Below, piece by piece: positions 1,741 to 12,199 of a stretch of 21,450 nt of DNA. Source of the DNA: a virus; the IMG/VR virus record IMGVR_UViG_3300026116_000106, positions 1 through 21,450 of that record, one strand, 5' to 3'. The translations under genes and the position numbers were made by a program. The stretch's first letter is position 1, and every line of letters starts with the position of its first letter. The notes under the pieces are model-generated. The model saw only the letters and a program-made list of their open reading frames with translations, was not told the DNA's origin and made no database searches.

Positions 1741-2127
1741 ATGAATCAACCCTCTAAGTTCGACCCGCGTGGCGAACCAATGCTCAAGAAAGCCTCCAAG
1801 GGGCGCAAGCCGATACCCGACCTGCTTTCCAAGTATGAGGTGAAGCCAAATGGCTGCTGGGAGTGGATCGCCACCCGAAACCGCCAAGGTTACGGCGTCG
1901 TGGGCCTCTATATCGATGGCCGTCCAGTGGGTTTGCCGGCGCCTCGGCTACAATGGATGCACTGCCACGGACAAATCCCTGATGGACTTGTGATAATGCA
2001 CATTTGCGATAATCCGCCGTGCATCAATCCAGCCCACCTGGCCCTCGCCTCCCAGGCCACGAATCTGGCCGATATGCGTGCAAAAGGAAGGGACAATCGG
2101 GACGGCTTAAAGTCCGCCGCCGCTTAA
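1741..2127 (+). CDS. HNH endonuclease (HNH_3-like), free-standing
   Basis: A 128-residue HNH nuclease, probably a homing endonuclease or nicking enzyme. Visible features are CWEW near residue 39, a short beta stretch (GYGVVGLYIDG), and the nuclease core with MHICDNPPC then INPAHL (about residues 83-99). There the His of MHIC, the Asn and the His of PAHL are expected to form the beta-beta-alpha metal site. The C-terminal NLADMRAKGRDNRDG is typical of phage free-standing HNH proteins. The start at 1741 has no Shine-Dalgarno but sits just after a -10-like hexamer; an alternative start is the ATG at 1780, also with a poor site. It lies alone after an AT-rich gap, consistent with a mobile intruder rather than a core gene. 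Confidence 0.85.
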   Translation: MNQPSKFDPRGEPMLKKASKGRKPIPDLLSKYEVKPNGCWEWIATRNRQGYGVVGLYIDGRPVGLPAPRLQWMHCHGQIPDGLVIMHICDNPPCINPAHLALASQATNLADMRAKGRDNRDGLKSAAA

Positions 2128-3454: not shown

Positions 3455-3681
3455 GGCGCCAATTCCTTCTCCTGAAGGATCATGCCGAGCGGAATCGTGA
3501 CATCCCCATCGCACTCGTCATCGACCAGGGATGCGGCCAGGGTTAGATACCGGCGCGTCCGCTTGATTTCCCAACCTACCGTTCGCACCGTTGCGGGCTG
3601 CTGGCGCTTGATCTGTTCAAGCTTCTTCCAGCCTACGGTATCGGATACGGCATCGTGCCAAACCACGTACAAGAGCTTCAT
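3451..3681 (-). CDS. conserved hypothetical protein, 76 aa
   Basis: Its ATG overlaps the stop of the HNH-AP2 gene (ATGA), and its ribosome binding site GAGG (3687-3690) lies inside the last codons of that gene. The protein runs KLLYVVWHDAVSDTVGW, a central VRTVGWEIKRTRRYLTLAAS, and an end DGDVTIPLGMI. The layout of a W-x-D-A opening, a 'VGW...YLTLAAS' middle and an 'IP.GMI' end is one I associate with small hypothetical proteins found in many phages of soil bacteria. A small beta-barrel-like fold is plausible. No catalytic residues are evident. It probably sat directly after the phosphoesterase gene before the HNH cassette inserted. Confidence 0.7.
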   Translation of the reverse strand: MKLLYVVWHDAVSDTVGWKKLEQIKRQQPATVRTVGWEIKRTRRYLTLAASLVDDECDGDVTIPLGMILQEKELAP

Positions 3682-4199
3682 TCGAGCCTCGCGAATTCAC
3701 CGTGGAGCTCGCGAGCCGCAGCCATATATGCGGCTATCGCCTCTTCCTTGGAGGCAAACACGCCGATCGTGATTTTTTTGCCGTAGAGCCCGATACGGGC
3801 GCGCCATTTCCCAGAGTCTTTTCTAAGGGAAACACCTTTGTGGCCGGATGAATTATCCCGGGCCAATCGGGTATTGCGCATATTCTGCGAGCGATCGACC
3901 TTGCGGAAATTAAGCCATGCATTATTCCCGGCGTCGCCATCTCTATGATCGATTTCGTGGCACGGCCATTCGCCCGTCACAAACCACCACGCTAATCGGT
4001 GAGCCGATACTAGGCGCTCCTCGATTTTGATCTGGATGCGCCCGTTACGCCCCCTATTCCCGGCGATCTGTCCGGTATAGCGCCCCGTTCTCCACCTGAA
4101 AATGCCAGCGACGGGATCGTACTCAAGCAACTCTTTCAGACGCTTGAGCGTGAACGGCTTGCCAGTTAGCCGAGATTCGGGAATAGGATAGTCAGCCAC
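3678..4199 (-). CDS. HNH-AP2 homing endonuclease (copy A)
   Basis: A 173-residue protein combining an N-terminal segment (LKRLKELLEYDPVAGIFRW), an HNH nuclease core and a C-terminal AP2-type DNA-binding domain. In the core, AHRLA (residues 66-70) and EIDHRDGDAGNNAWLNFR (82-99) carry the expected His, Asp-His and Asn residues. The AP2 part runs from about 117 (SSGHKGVS, KWRARIGLYGKK, ITIGVFASKEEAIAAY) to ELHGEFARLE. The GTG at 4199 is preferred over an ATG at 4295: GGAG lies seven bases upstream, and the resulting N-terminus aligns with the other copy at 6310. The last codons provide the Shine-Dalgarno and ATG for the next gene. The leader contains two hairpins shared in design with copy B. 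Expected to be a selfish mobile gene. Confidence 0.88.
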   Translation of the reverse strand: MADYPIPESRLTGKPFTLKRLKELLEYDPVAGIFRWRTGRYTGQIAGNRGRNGRIQIKIEERLVSAHRLAWWFVTGEWPCHEIDHRDGDAGNNAWLNFRKVDRSQNMRNTRLARDNSSGHKGVSLRKDSGKWRARIGLYGKKITIGVFASKEEAIAAYMAAARELHGEFARLE

Positions 4200-4200
4200 G

Positions 4201-4217
4201 ACAGCACTCCGCGCTGT
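4201..4217 (-). promoter_or_regulatory. start-site hairpin, HNH-AP2 copy A
   Basis: In the transcribed strand ACAGC and GCTGT pair across a seven-base loop (GCGGAGT) that displays the Shine-Dalgarno GGAG. The stem ends one base before the GTG start. The equivalent position of copy B (6316-6330) has CGCT/AGCG around a seven-base loop. The sequences differ but the geometry matches, and the spacer from GGAG to the start codon is seven bases in both. Confidence 0.45.
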
Positions 4218-4220
4218 TTG

Positions 4221-4262
4221 GGTTAGGGATGGCAGGGCGCTACCAACACCCTGCTGTCCCGC
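4221..4262 (-). ncRNA. structured RNA leader element, copy A
   Basis: This 42-base element begins two bases after the phosphoesterase stop codon and precedes the HNH-AP2 gene. In the transcribed strand it reads GC, then GGGA pairing with TCCC, a C/A mismatch, then GCAGGGTG pairing with CGCCCTGC around the loop TTGGTAG, and it ends TAACC. It aligns without gaps to 6337-6378 at 31 of 42 positions. Two of the changes are fully compensatory (an A-T pair for G-C and a G-C pair for A-T). No T-tract follows, so it is not a standard terminator. I cannot name an RNA family for it. Confidence 0.6.
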
Positions 4263-4263
4263 A

Positions 4264-5373
4264 TTATGCAGCAATTCTAGCATTTTTTCGACCATTTATA
4301 CGTTTGTCGCGGTTTACTTCTAACGGTCTGTCGTGGTCCGTTCGCAGCATCCGCAAGACCTTGGCTGCAAGCTCCACATCATGGAAGACAGAGACCAGCG
4401 CCGGGTCGTCATCATCCTTGGTCGGGTCTATGATCGTAACTGCTGCGGGCGAGACCGCTCCATCCGGCAATCCCAGTTCCTTGGCGTAGCGGTCATGCTT
4501 CTTGTAGCCGGCCAGCCTGAGGATGTGGGAGATGAGCCCGGACGCCGGGTCCTTGGTCATCAGGTAGGCGCTGGTGTGCGTATGTCCGCAGGAGAGGATA
4601 TGATCGCGCCAGCCCATCATGGCAGCCTTCAATGGACCATGGCCGGGGTTCCACATACTGTGGCCCTTGAAGTCGTGCCGGGCGTTGACCCGTATCTGCT
4701 TGCCATTCGGGAACTTCAGATTGAGCCGGACGCCCCCATAGTCGAACACGCCGGCCTGGTCCCGTGTAATCCACTGCAGAGGGTCCCCTGCGCCGCTCCA
4801 GGCATCGTGGTTGCCGCCTACGAGATAGAGCCAGTCAACCGACCTAACGAGCCATTCCGTGAGCCGCCATGCTGTCTTCTTGCTGGTCTCCTGCTGGCCC
4901 CACAGATGAGAAAGGCGACCCACCCAGTTGTTTTGGAGGTCGCCTACATTGGCCCCGAACATGCCAGGCGTACTCTGAACAATCTCGACGTGGCGACGGA
5001 GGGTGGGAAGATCACATCCATCATCGTCCACATGCGGGTCCCCGAAGTGAACGATGCCGATCGGGCCATCGAGCTTTATACGCACGTCGATGAGTTTGCG
5101 GGCCTGCTCCGCTCTATCCTTGAGGTGGAAGGCGCGGGATCGCCGTTCCAACAGTTCCTCGATCGGCTCGTCTCCGCTAGGTAAATCGTCAATCTCGAAA
5201 GCGGGTTCCTTCCGGAGAGGTAAGAACCCCCTGGCTTGGGCAAGCTTGAGCCTGCTCATGTAGGTCTTTCGATTGATCCCAAGTCGGAGGGCTGCCTGCA
5301 TCTGATTTCCGGCAATAGCAAGGGCATCTACCGCCTCCTGCAGGAGTTCCGGCGAAGTGGGATGGCCGGCCAT
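4264..5373 (-). CDS. calcineurin-like metallophosphoesterase with N-terminal HTH
   Basis: A 369-residue two-domain protein. Residues about 8-48 (ELLQEAVDALAIAGNQMQAA, then LGINRKTYMSRLK) look like a helix-turn-helix of the kind found in phage terminase small subunits or resolvases. The rest carries the canonical metallophosphoesterase motifs in order: GDPH (111-114), GDLQNN (144-149), GGNHD (186-190), RHDFKGHS (232-239) and GHTH (263-266). These residues coordinate the two metals and hydrolyse phosphomonoesters or diesters; the actual substrate is unknown. The ATG overlaps the upstream stop as TAATG. Phage enzymes of this class have been proposed to act on DNA ends, nucleotides or RNA; the fused HTH favours a DNA-related role. 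All metal ligands appear intact. Confidence 0.9.
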   Translation of the reverse strand: MAGHPTSPELLQEAVDALAIAGNQMQAALRLGINRKTYMSRLKLAQARGFLPLRKEPAFEIDDLPSGDEPIEELLERRSRAFHLKDRAEQARKLIDVRIKLDGPIGIVHFGDPHVDDDGCDLPTLRRHVEIVQSTPGMFGANVGDLQNNWVGRLSHLWGQQETSKKTAWRLTEWLVRSVDWLYLVGGNHDAWSGAGDPLQWITRDQAGVFDYGGVRLNLKFPNGKQIRVNARHDFKGHSMWNPGHGPLKAAMMGWRDHILSCGHTHTSAYLMTKDPASGLISHILRLAGYKKHDRYAKELGLPDGAVSPAAVTIIDPTKDDDDPALVSVFHDVELAAKVLRMLRTDHDRPLEVNRDKRINGRKNARIAA

Positions 5374-5783
5374 TAGAAGGCTCCAGTCGGAGGTACGGCG
5401 CAGAGCACGCCGGCATAGAGTGAGTAGCAGAGATGCCCGGTCACCCCAGACGGGTCCGGGTTGTGCTGGCGGATGATCTTGGCGTCAGGAACGTCGATCC
5501 ACCCGCCCCCGTCTTCCTTGGCTCGCAGGGCTTGCCAGTGGCCGCCGATGAGCTTAAACGGTGTCGGGTAACAATCCCCCGTCATCGCTCCGTTGGGGTA
5601 GACGACGCGCGCATTGCAGCAGGACGCCTCGCTGCCCGGCTGCTTCCAGTTCTGGTACTCGGCATGAAAGCGCATATGGCCTTCCGTGTGGTCCTGCCCC
5701 CACGCTGCGGAGCCGAGGACGAGGACAAAGCCTCCAAACGTCATCACGGCCACGAGGAGCGCGATCCAGTCGTCGCGCTTCAT
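5373..5783 (-). CDS. exported cysteine-rich hypothetical protein, 136 aa
   Basis: The N-terminus (MKRDDWIALLVAVMTFGGFV, continuing LVLGSAAWGQD) is a signal peptide with a plausible cleavage after AWG or AWGQ, or else a membrane anchor. The remainder is a small soluble domain with five cysteines (SCCNAR, GDCYP, HLCYS, VLCAV) and conserved-looking Trp and Gly residues. It resembles secreted hypotheticals common in Bradyrhizobium and relatives, which share a 'CC..(D)C' start, a 'W..VP' middle and a 'HLC....VLC..P' end. This is one reason to suspect a Hyphomicrobiales host. A periplasmic role is likely. The gene is entered by the ATGA overlap with HNH-AP2 copy B and leads into the phosphoesterase. 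Function unknown. Confidence 0.7.
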   Translation of the reverse strand: MKRDDWIALLVAVMTFGGFVLVLGSAAWGQDHTEGHMRFHAEYQNWKQPGSEASCCNARVVYPNGAMTGDCYPTPFKLIGGHWQALRAKEDGGGWIDVPDAKIIRQHNPDPSGVTGHLCYSLYAGVLCAVPPTGAF

Positions 5784-6310
5784 TTTAACCTCGCAAATTC
5801 GCCGTGGAGTTCTAATGCGGCGTTGCCATAAGCTTCGTGTGCAGCTGCCGCGGTAGTGAATGTGCCCCGGCAGATTCGCTTGCCATTTATTTCGATCACT
5901 GCCTGGAAGTTACGGCCGTTTCGCTGGACGCCCTTAAAGCCGGTCGCATTATCGGGGCGACGACGCCTATTTCGCATATTCTCAGATCGAGTGACCTCGC
6001 GAAGGTTTGCCCACCGATTATCGGCACGGTCCATGTTGCGGTGGTCAACTTCGTTGGCCGGCCATTTACCGGTCATATAGAGAATCGCTAGGCGGTGTGC
6101 CCCATAGAGTTGACCGTCGATACGGATTACAGGGTAGCCATGACTAAGGCATCCAGCGACGGCGCCAGCCTTGGCGTGGCCACCTCTTTTGCTTGTCGCT
6201 AACCACGTAAAAAGGCCAGTTCCCGGGTCATAGTTGAGAAGCTCTTTAAGCCGCTCCACTGTGACTAGCTTGCGCGATTCGGACTCTGGGCTCAGTGTGG
6301 GAAGAGCCAT
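5780..6310 (-). CDS. HNH-AP2 homing endonuclease (copy B)
   Basis: A 176-residue paralogue of the protein at 3678-4199. It has the same order: VERLKELLNYDPGTGLFTW, then AHRLAILYMTGKWPANEVDH (residues 71-90), NRWANLREVTRSENMRN, and an AP2-type tail with GFKGVQR (124-130), FQAVIEINGKRICRGTFTT and ELHGEFARLK. Conserved His, Asp-His and Asn residues of the HNH site are present. The ATG at 6310 has AGGAG with a good spacing and aligns with the start of copy A, so the in-frame ATG at 6403 is rejected. GCG AGG in its last codons provides GAGG five bases before the next gene's ATG, exactly as in copy A. It separates the lysis-type genes from the phosphoesterase block and is probably a mobile insertion. 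Confidence 0.88.
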   Translation of the reverse strand: MALPTLSPESESRKLVTVERLKELLNYDPGTGLFTWLATSKRGGHAKAGAVAGCLSHGYPVIRIDGQLYGAHRLAILYMTGKWPANEVDHRNMDRADNRWANLREVTRSENMRNRRRRPDNATGFKGVQRNGRNFQAVIEINGKRICRGTFTTAAAAHEAYGNAALELHGEFARLK

Positions 6311-6315
6311 TGCCT

Positions 6316-6330
6316 CGCTCCTATACAGCG
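6316..6330 (-). promoter_or_regulatory. start-site hairpin, HNH-AP2 copy B
   Basis: In the transcribed strand CGCT and AGCG can pair around the seven-base loop GTATAGG. The Shine-Dalgarno AGGAG spans the loop and the 3' arm, seven bases before the ATG at 6310. Only four pairs form, so it is weak alone. The matching loop size and spacing in copy A is what makes it worth recording. Confidence 0.35.
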
Positions 6331-6336
6331 GGTGAT

Positions 6337-6378
6337 GGTTAGGGGTGGCAAGGTGTTGGAAGCACCTCGCCGCCCCGC
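6337..6378 (-). ncRNA. structured RNA leader element, copy B
   Basis: This is the counterpart of 4221-4262. In the transcribed strand GGGG pairs with CCCC, a C/A mismatch is retained, and GGCGAGGTG pairs with CACCTTGCC (one G-T) around the loop CTTCCAA. The flanks GC and TAACC are the same as in copy A. It lies 30 bases after the lipoprotein stop codon and 26 bases before the HNH-AP2 start. The stem is kept while the loop has diverged, which is the pattern expected of a selected RNA structure. Confidence 0.6.
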
Positions 6379-6932: not shown

Positions 6933-7697
6933 TTAGGTATTGCTGTACACACACCAGAAGTCGTTTCCGTACTTCACGACGTACTCTTCGGGGATCCAGG
7001 CGTTGCCGCCATCGCCCCATGCTGAACTCCAACTGTTCCTGACTTTGAAAAAGCCGGGACGCTGGCCAAAGCCGATCACCAGCATCGCGTGACCACCAAT
7101 CGAGCGCTCGTTCCATGCCGGCATCGGCACGACGCCAGTCTTTGCAACCTCTTCGGACTCGAATGATGGGAAAATCTGGACGCCGATGATTACGGGGCGG
7201 CCGGTGTAGAGCGCCGTCTTGATGGCTCTCGTGGAGACCTCTATGCGCTGGTACTCGATCGCCTTGTGCTTGGCAGCTGATGCATAGGCAGCCTCATTGG
7301 GCTTGTCGTAGAGCTTCGTGAGGTCGTAGGGCCACACCGACTCCTCAGACACACCTATGGTCGCGGCCACCTTGAGGGCGTCGCGAATCTGGCACCCACT
7401 GTCCTCGCCTGCGGTTCCTTCCATGGAGCGCGTGTCGAAATAACCCTGCAGGCGCGAGAGCGGAACATCTGCGTCGTCGGTGTTCTTGTAGTCATACCGC
7501 ATAGCCGCCGTAGTGGCGTTCCAGACGCAGGAGCCGGCCGAGAGCTGGTCGAATGGCAATGGGCATTGCGGCTCAAGATCGGTCGGCCGCAACATGCTCT
7601 CCGGCATGTATTTTGCCTTGCTAAACCACGAGACAGAAAACTTGTGGTCCTTGCCGTCGTCCGGATCGTCCGGGATGTAGCCGTGGACGCGCGTCAT
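6933..7697 (-). CDS. papain-like C1 family cysteine peptidase
   Basis: A 254-residue protein with the full papain-type active site in order: QLSAGSCVWNA (oxyanion Gln51, nucleophile Cys57), GGHAMLVIGF (His203) and VRNSWSSAWGDGG (Asn221). The segment LRPTDLEPQCPLPFDQLSAG is the usual entry to a mature C1A-type domain. No signal peptide or long inhibitory propeptide is visible; only about 35 residues precede the domain. The ATG overlaps the stop of the holin-like gene. A C1 peptidase between lysis-type genes is unusual. It might cleave envelope proteins during lysis, be packaged with the virion, or modify a host target. The family assignment is firm; the role is inference. Confidence 0.9.
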   Translation of the reverse strand: MTRVHGYIPDDPDDGKDHKFSVSWFSKAKYMPESMLRPTDLEPQCPLPFDQLSAGSCVWNATTAAMRYDYKNTDDADVPLSRLQGYFDTRSMEGTAGEDSGCQIRDALKVAATIGVSEESVWPYDLTKLYDKPNEAAYASAAKHKAIEYQRIEVSTRAIKTALYTGRPVIIGVQIFPSFESEEVAKTGVVPMPAWNERSIGGHAMLVIGFGQRPGFFKVRNSWSSAWGDGGNAWIPEEYVVKYGNDFWCVYSNT

Positions 7698-10534: not shown

Positions 10535-11541
10535 GCGGGGATATTGTTCTGGGCGTCGGCTGAACCAGTGATTCCAATGCTGACGGAATGGAAGTGGGGC
10601 GCGCCGGCACCGCCGAACGGTCCCGAGCCGAAGGAACCATCAGCGCTCTCCGTAGAGGTATTACCGCTGCCGCTACCACTGACATTGTGGGTGTGCGTGT
10701 CAGAGCCTCCCGAGGCGCTGATAGCCGTGCCGCTATTATCAGTGCGCCGGAACTTGTTCGTCATGTTCGGCAAGACGAGCCGGCAATGGGCCGCGTAGTC
10801 GGCCGCCGCATTCGCTCCCCGGCTTACCGGAGCGCCAGCCGAGTTCTGGAGGACATAGTTTGTATTCGCCCAAAGCAGGGTAAAGAGGCTTACCGTGTCC
10901 GCATTGGCCCGCTCGGTAGCCCCCGAGGAAGCATCGCCGATCGAATTACCGCGCTCCAGCACCCAGCCCGAGGGGACCTGCGAGGTCGCGCCCCGGAAGC
11001 CCATGGTGGCCCCGGTGGGAACAGCGCCGGCCACTGGCCCGCTGAACGTATTTGTGCCGGTGAAGGTGTTGTTGCCCGACAGCGACGGCGGGTCCGTAGG
11101 ACCCGAGACGGCAAGGACATCAAAGCCCGGTGCGGCTGAATTGTATCTGACTGTTACATTCTGGTTCGCCTGAAGGTCGCCCGCCGCGAGGGCAACGAAG
11201 GAGCCACCGGAGAACTTGCGAAGAGAAATCGCACCAAGCCCGTCAATGTTCAGGCTGGGGCTCGCACCGCAAGTTGCATTGATTGCGAAGCTATAGAGCT
11301 GGCCATTGTAATAGGCCGTCTCCGCTTGCGTGGTAGAAGTCAGGGTATAGGCCGTGCTGGTGCCACCCGTTGTCAGGACCGGGTTGATCTTGTTGTACCA
11401 GCGCTTGCTTGCGGCCATGTTTTCCCGCGCACAGTCGTTCACGGTCGAGGGATTTTGGCCCTCCGGCCAACCGTTGGGGGTAGCGGCATTGTTGGAGGCA
11501 GCGGCCTCGGAATATGAAGACGATCCGATATCAGAAGGCAT
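10501..11541 (-). CDS. tail fibre with phage tail-collar domain, 346 aa
   Basis: The second ATG (11541) is the likely start because AGGAG lies seven bases upstream; the first (11547) would have the site almost touching it. The N-terminal part carries [20 protein letters not shown], a typical attachment segment. The middle module has [20 protein letters not shown] and [16 protein letters not shown]. The C-terminal ~150 residues form a tail-collar (microcystin-dependent-protein-like) domain: [20 protein letters not shown], then [12 protein letters not shown], with T4 fibre-tip-like HxH motifs (DTHTHN, HFHS) and the closing [15 protein letters not shown]. The HxH motifs suggest metal-stabilised trimerisation at the tip. 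Expected to be the receptor-binding fibre or collar component. The start overlaps the end of the HNH gene by 11 bases. Confidence 0.85.
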
Positions 11542-12199
11542 AGCCATTCTCCTGGCGCTGAATTTCAGTAGTTAGCGCCTTCTCAACGGACCAGCCGAAA
11601 ATATCCAGCCGCGCTCTTAATGTTCCGTGTTTTAACCCCCTCAATGACGCCCATTCAGCGAGCGTGTGGCGCTCGCCGCCGAACTCTATGAAGCGACTGG
11701 TACGTCGGTTATTGGCCTGCTCTTTTGGGGTAGCCCATCGACAATTTTCGGATGAATAAGGGCCATTGTTGTCAATCCTTTCAATGCTGCCCCCAAGCGG
11801 ACGCGGCCCCATATCACGTTCAAAAACCGCGAAATCAGCCCATCGCGGATCAATAGCAATCCCCCGACCACCATATGAAGGAAAGGCTCGATCGGTGGCA
11901 CATAAGCAGCGCCCGCGCATTTTTGCCCATATGCGATAGACGGCACCCTTCTTGCCACCAACAGTGCGACCATGCGTTATGGCTCTTCCCTGTGAAAGTT
12001 CATTGCGGAGGCAGCCACATGAACGAACTTTCCCACTACGTAGATTATTGCCACTTTGTGTGGTGCGATTGCCGCAATCACAGACGCAATTCCAGCGATA
12101 GCGGTAGCGAATCCTTTCGGGTGCCTCGCTCTCAACGAGAAGGCGCCCAAACCGCTCCCCGATGAGATTGAGTTTCCGCGAAGTTACTGTATCAGACAT
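11531..12199 (-). CDS. HNH-type homing endonuclease with zinc finger and C-terminal helix domain
   Basis: A 222-residue protein of a different architecture from the HNH-AP2 pair. The N-terminus has RFGRLLVES and a Cys cluster (CVCDCGNRT ... SCGCLRNE, about residues 38-63) likely to bind zinc. The centre has [27 protein letters not shown] and the nuclease-like segment [20 protein letters not shown], then [11 protein letters not shown]. The C-terminus ([20 protein letters not shown], then KHGTLRARL and WSVEKAL) is a NUMOD/HTH-like DNA-binding module. This domain set is common in free-standing phage homing endonucleases. The ribosome binding site AGAGG lies six bases before the ATG. The gene sits between an ejection protein and a fibre gene, a typical intrusion site. 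Confidence 0.83.

Follow-up and report, generated by a model that had tools for sequence, protein, structure and literature searches.

Two related leaders precede diverged HNH endonuclease genes

The window analyzed here is the whole 21,450-nucleotide stretch of a viral record (IMGVR_UViG_3300026116_000106, positions 1 to 21,450). Two HNH endonuclease genes lie on its minus strand: gene A (3678-4199, GTG start at 4199), which matches Pfam HNH_3 (E=1.3e-10) and, under the curated cut-off, AP2 (E=2.9e-6), and gene B (5780-6310, ATG start at 6310), which matches HNH_3 (E=2.7e-17) and the PHROG family phrog_99, HNH endonuclease (E=2.7e-65). An initial annotation had called the two genes clearly diverged, and their proteins are 46% identical. 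Ahead of them, at 4221-4262 and 6337-6378 on the minus strand, are the two 42-base segments that this annotation had described as a shared, covarying RNA leader. They align without gaps, as it reported, with 30 rather than 31 of 42 positions identical on recount; the runner-up non-self match of either segment across the window reaches 24, the segments' own reverse complements (25-27) being excluded.

Both segments adopt the fold proposed for them, in which a C/A mismatch separates an outer stem of four pairs from an inner stem of 8-9 pairs that ends in a 7-base loop, and the compensatory stem changes between the two copies are genuine. So is the second hairpin seen at the Shine-Dalgarno. Read along the plus strand, antisense to the genes, copy A comprises a candidate hairpin I (4201-4217; stem ACAGC/GCTGT, 7-base loop ACTCCGC with an anti-Shine-Dalgarno), the linker GGTTA (4221-4225; the flanking TAACC of the initial annotation), and hairpin II (4226-4260; its long hairpin). 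Copy B has the same order, with a candidate hairpin I at 6316-6330 (stem CGCT/AGCG, 7-base loop CCTATAC), the linker GGTTA at 6337-6341, and hairpin II at 6342-6376. Hairpin II is delineated by covariation, and hairpin I in both copies by sequence and by the enrichment of its class over shuffles, as described below.

Two other HNH-type genes are present in the window, and a search with our model R2 found no element at either. One, at 1741-2127 (+), is an HNH_3 gene; the other, at 11531-12199 (-), has no Pfam match and resembles in sequence the phrog_374-type HNH proteins, which elsewhere accompany the element. The window also encodes a phage-borne papain-family (Peptidase_C1) cysteine protease at 6933-7697 (-).

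The element recurs in phages, plasmids, and proteobacterial genomes

A search pattern derived from the two window copies retrieved L040 among viral contigs and six bacterial matches, five of which are real; the match in L045 was attributed to chance, as were those in L104, L109, and L136. A looser pattern describing the hairpin only, free of any start-codon or endonuclease criterion, matched at least 119 viral contigs, for which we estimate a chance expectation well below one. Among the matches listed, and with hold-outs kept apart, we assembled 93 unique leader-gene units, bacterial and plasmid members included, that occur in phages, plasmids, and proteobacterial genomes. A Shine-Dalgarno and ATGGC consistently follow the hairpin, the start codon lies a median of ~24 bases from it, and the second codon is GCT in 74 of the 93 units. 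Partial-coverage matches of model R1 (positions 5-34), which fall mainly within coding genes, were excluded.

The initial annotation had proposed looking for further copies at HNH genes, and the element is indeed linked to HNH endonuclease genes well outside this window. Among 38 relatives of the HNH proteins that we examined (best full-length identity 53%), it is clear in L014 and L016 and weak in L006, L021, and L023, in all five cases immediately before the HNH gene; it also stands ahead of HNH genes in Rhizobium phage RHph_Y1_10 and Sulfitobacter phage phiGT1. In genomes sampled from two proteobacterial classes, ~8% carry at least one copy (30/367 and 30/350).

Some genomes hold six to nine copies (G386, G613, G694, G387). 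Near antisense elements in bacterial genomes we also observed int-alpA RNAs (RF02996, above the gathering score; L061 2118-2187 and L055 809-889), which suggests the presence of integrative elements.

Base exchanges point to the antisense strand

When 45 antisense sequences are aligned in the two-hairpin structure, the covariation score is 0.306, compared with 0.146 (SD 0.012) for shuffled alignments and 0.045-0.143 for slid partners, bearing out the covarying structured RNA put forward initially. From AGCCAU at the 5' end, the alignment continues into hairpin I, whose 7-base loop is of the CUCC type, then a GGUYA linker that hardly varies, and finally hairpin II (helix 41-54/63-76). MAFFT sets some rows of hairpin I out of register; with the register fixed at 5 pairs and a 7-base loop, at least four Watson-Crick pairs form in 50 of 92 units, by 37 different stems. 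A stem of at least four pairs with a 7-base loop is found in 40 of 93 units, against a mean of 5.1 and a maximum of 12 in shuffled spacers.

The strand on which this structure is selected can be read from the exchanges within it. We counted these at the hairpin II pairs that the search pattern leaves free. On distinct stems, 43 exchanges give a sense A.C, which is a G.U in the antisense strand, and one gives a sense G.U (binomial p=5e-12, kinship ignored; the p-values for strand bias are only indicative because the sequences are related). The Shine-Dalgarno hairpin shows the same bias, and 29 viral units held out from the analysis repeat it, with 14 sense A.C to one sense G.U. Stem sequence itself varies freely, with 69 distinct arm combinations. 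Such an excess of A.C over G.U on the sense strand implies that selection acts on the antisense transcript; neither selection for an mRNA structure nor a DNA palindrome would predict it, and it counts against both. The initial annotation had placed the structure in the transcribed strand, where G.U pairs are nearly absent; the selected fold belongs to the opposite one. The C/A position that it noted is present in both copies, and in the antisense RNA it is a U.G wobble instead of a mismatch.

Promoter-like signals flank the element on both strands

Averaged over members, the antisense strand carries a sigma70-like promoter signal inside codons 5-14 of the downstream gene, facing backwards. Its -10 peaks at coding sequence (CDS) offset 13 (mean score -0.8 versus -5.0, SD 0.4) and its -35, spaced from it by 16-17, peaks at offsets 35-36. 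The predicted start, CDS base 6, is the position at which SymR starts within symE in E. coli K-12. Members score higher for this antisense promoter than 252 control genes drawn from their own contigs (p=1e-12) and than 59 controls that likewise start with ATGGC (p=6e-9). The -10 peak was repeated in 51 new bacterial units (+1.45 versus -4.06, SD 0.43), which were found with a model that stops short of the -10, and it appeared at offset 12 in the 29 hold-out phage units.

In the window, a putative antisense promoter for copy A lies within the HNH coding region at 4159-4187 (+): TTGCCA (4159-4164), 17 bp, and AATAGG (4182-4187), with a score of 4.6 that equals the family median. That of copy B (6270-6298, +), composed of TTGCGC (6270-6275), 17 bp, and CAGTGT (6293-6298), sits at the family position, matches the consensus poorly (score 0.1), and is doubtful on sequence. 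From these starts, the predicted antisense RNAs would extend back from CDS base 6 across the start codon, Shine-Dalgarno, and leader, covering 4194-4262 (+, ~70 nt) for copy A and 6305-6378 (+, ~74 nt) for copy B.

In four members (L299, L306, L310, L320), otherwise unlike small proteins share a start resembling MAD..NTRT, apparently a product of the antisense -10 (TATTAT) written into their codons.

On the sense strand, -10 and -35 peaks of the family lie immediately upstream of the hairpin, so that the mRNA would start at the hairpin base. Copy A has a putative sense promoter of this kind at 4263-4291 (-), with TCGAAA, 17 bp, and a CATAAT that ends at the hairpin base. The A-rich stretch ahead of the hairpin is compatible with a sense -10 as well as with an antisense U tail.

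These sense signals bear on the view taken initially, that the hairpins are a structured leader which acts within the mRNA, on its translation or its stability, and that no antisense RNA takes part. They have the transcript beginning at the hairpin, and the mRNA is able to form a mirror fold with the Shine-Dalgarno in a loop; moreover, T4-type homing endonucleases are under the control of hairpins at the ribosome-binding site (PMC2988022). We nonetheless consider this view unlikely: A.C mismatches would be common and G.U pairs nearly absent in the strand said to fold, an antisense promoter recurs within unrelated coding sequences, and the characterized relatives with the same anatomy are antisense RNAs.

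The element precedes diverse endonucleases and other genes

Genes downstream of the element belong to PHROG endonuclease families in 42 of 75 phage units, including several HNH families, endonuclease VII, the GIY-YIG homing endonuclease, and others; by comparison, 4 of 459 other open reading frames on the same contigs resemble these endonucleases. The remaining units encode RadC, Bro-N/KilAC antirepressors, GDSL lipases, and many unknowns. The restriction to HNH-AP2 genes implied by the initial annotation therefore falls away, as the element also stands before endonuclease VII-like, GIY-YIG, and many non-endonuclease genes.

A comparison of phage phiGT1 with pCB2047-A reveals a 669-bp insert that starts from the stop codon of the preceding gene and holds the sense promoter, the leader, and the HNH gene; this is a single comparison between phages that are ~72%-75% identical there. 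A second phiGT1 copy (L212 1830-1902, 35.6 bits) precedes gene 9, another HNH nuclease. In this phage, the start annotated for the gene 12 HNH protein is misplaced by 115 bases in the downstream direction, with the element pointing to L212 3069. For copies A and B, we searched for an empty site at 80 loci with relatives of the window's metallophosphoesterase-like gene and found no such site, nor any shared neighbors apart from one lysozyme-like match.

The phiGT1 hairpin lies ~35 bp inside the insert and not at its end, at odds with the earlier suggestion that the element marks the boundary of a mobile unit. This also weighs against a palindrome acting in the DNA, whether as an operator, a homing target, or such a boundary. 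Many downstream genes do encode DNA-binding enzymes, and I-TevI is autorepressed through an operator within its promoter (PMC2988022). However, selection on a DNA palindrome would not separate A.C from G.U exchanges, found here at 43 to 1, nor would it readily leave stems free to take dozens of arm combinations, and we judge it very improbable. That the hairpin serves the gene upstream as an intrinsic terminator is a reading that we reject and give almost no credence: in the window, a same-strand gene does end shortly before each hairpin, yet the sense direction lacks a U-run, the Shine-Dalgarno and ATGGC follow at a consistent distance, and in L040 and L014 the upstream neighbor is divergent, so that the hairpin is not an upstream gene's 3' end.

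A model for antisense silencing of mobile endonucleases

We conclude that the two leaders are most likely loci of cis-encoded antisense (counter-transcript) RNAs, predicted on the plus strand of the window, together with the complementary target on the HNH mRNA, and that these RNAs would silence the endonuclease. Judged from sequence, we favor a family of RepX/SymR-like RNAs that would silence homing endonucleases of phages along with further genes of mobile elements; this reading draws on two covarying hairpins, the bias in strand, signals resembling promoters on either strand, unrelated endonuclease genes downstream, and one whole-unit insertion. Points against it are the poor -10 and -35 of copy B, the absence of a U-run after hairpin II in both window copies, and the existence of members without a clear hairpin I.

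The element probably controls translation of the endonuclease, and we infer the following course. The antisense RNA would begin within the gene, near CDS base 6, run back across the start codon and Shine-Dalgarno, and fold into hairpin I, with its 7-base anti-Shine-Dalgarno loop, the GGUYA linker, and a terminator-like hairpin II. Kissing-loop pairing with the mirror hairpin of the mRNA, followed by duplex formation, would prevent ribosome binding and keep endonuclease levels down. Together with its own sense promoter and the RNA locus, the endonuclease gene could move as one cassette. The benefit may be a low level of endonuclease in the established phage and possibly a burst on entry into a cell that lacks the RNA.

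To our knowledge, the restraint of free-standing phage homing endonucleases is known mainly from T4, where it involves mRNA hairpins and late promoters. If our model is correct, an antisense-RNA cassette shared by HNH, endonuclease VII-like, and GIY-YIG genes would represent a second, general solution. The position of the antisense -10 would also explain why unrelated proteins have in common an ATGGCT start and T/A-rich codons 5-7.

Comparison with known RNA families

An Rfam scan of the window with 4,227 families, HEARO included, gave no match at gathering score. The initial annotation knew of no named family for the element; a relative can nevertheless be named, as copy B matches RF00043 (Plasmid_R1162) end to end on the strand opposite to its predicted antisense RNA (42.2 bits, E=2.8e-5), under the gathering score of 55. 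Copy A has no RF00043 match at E<=10. Model R2 scores copies A and B at 51.9 and 72 bits, respectively, both sequences being part of its training set. Trained without any IncQ plasmid, R2 also finds the repA leader of the IncQ1 plasmid pMS260 (38.1 bits, E=2.6e-7), where RF00043 itself scores 90.3 bits. On pMS260 (L048 1475-1548), RF00043 matches the repA mRNA strand, while the published R1162/RepX RNA is the complement; the Rfam model appears to run in the direction of the mRNA.

The 75-nt RepX RNA is antisense to the ribosome-binding site and start codon of repA, and a GUUA spacer joins its two stem-loops; it is bound by FinO, and mutations in it raise copy number (PMC8136791). Its 3' tail likewise lacks three consecutive uridines (PMC8136791). 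The element resembles this RNA of the IncQ1 plasmids RSF1010/R1162 in its length of about 75 nt, in its two hairpins and GUUA spacer, in lying antisense to the ribosome-binding site and start codon, and in the ATGGCT gene start. The targets differ: the replication helicase gene repA of an IncQ plasmid for RepX, HNH endonucleases in the window.

SymR, which has its promoter inside the symE reading frame and is proven to repress translation (PMC1891008), offers a second parallel. It is 77 nt long with its 5' end at CDS base 6, a hairpin I loop CUCCAGG, and a linker ending in GAUUAG, although symE is not a phage endonuclease. In our element, a 5' end at CDS base 6 with a -10 inside the reading frame is present as a sequence signal, weak for copy B. 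The SymR family (RF01809) gave no match to the window copies; member L061 matches it at 44.1 bits (E=3.2e-5; gathering score 61, not reached). As R2 does not find SymR, kinship with it goes by anatomy and through L061 as a bridging member. Two further members connect to the plasmid-transferred antisense RNA ptaRNA1 (RF01811), with L041 at 32.1 and L157 at 35.6 bits on the antisense strand (gathering score 47, not reached). Both also match RF00043 below threshold (30.7 and 41.1 bits). The window copies have no RF01811 match, the one in the window (15.5 bits) being elsewhere.

Other systems are more distant. FinP of F-like plasmids, which acts on traJ, shares two stem-loops and anti-ribosome-binding-site pairing, and RepX has been called FinP-like (PMC8136791); its linker is GACA instead of GUUA, and R2 found no match in the F traM-traJ region. 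The radC RNA (RF01754), considered because L043 lies ahead of a RadC gene, yielded no hit in the window region (E<=10) or in L043 (E<=1). In the T4-type homing endonucleases I-TevI, segB, and mobE, RNA structure at the ribosome-binding site also lowers translation, as passages of PMC2988022 describe, yet these are single mRNA hairpins tied to late promoters, and the same passages describe no antisense RNA acting on these endonucleases.

The element thus falls within no single Rfam family, and its working anatomy is the same as that of SymR, RepX/R1162, and ptaRNA1. We tentatively suggest, at somewhat less than even odds, that SymR, RepX/R1162, ptaRNA1, and the phage element form one superfamily of exchangeable antisense modules across Proteobacteria, in phages, plasmids, and integrative elements, joined again and again to homing endonucleases that are unrelated, and to dozens of further genes, as a switch that is silent when resident and active on entry. 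If so, three Rfam families that have no common clan would be joined.
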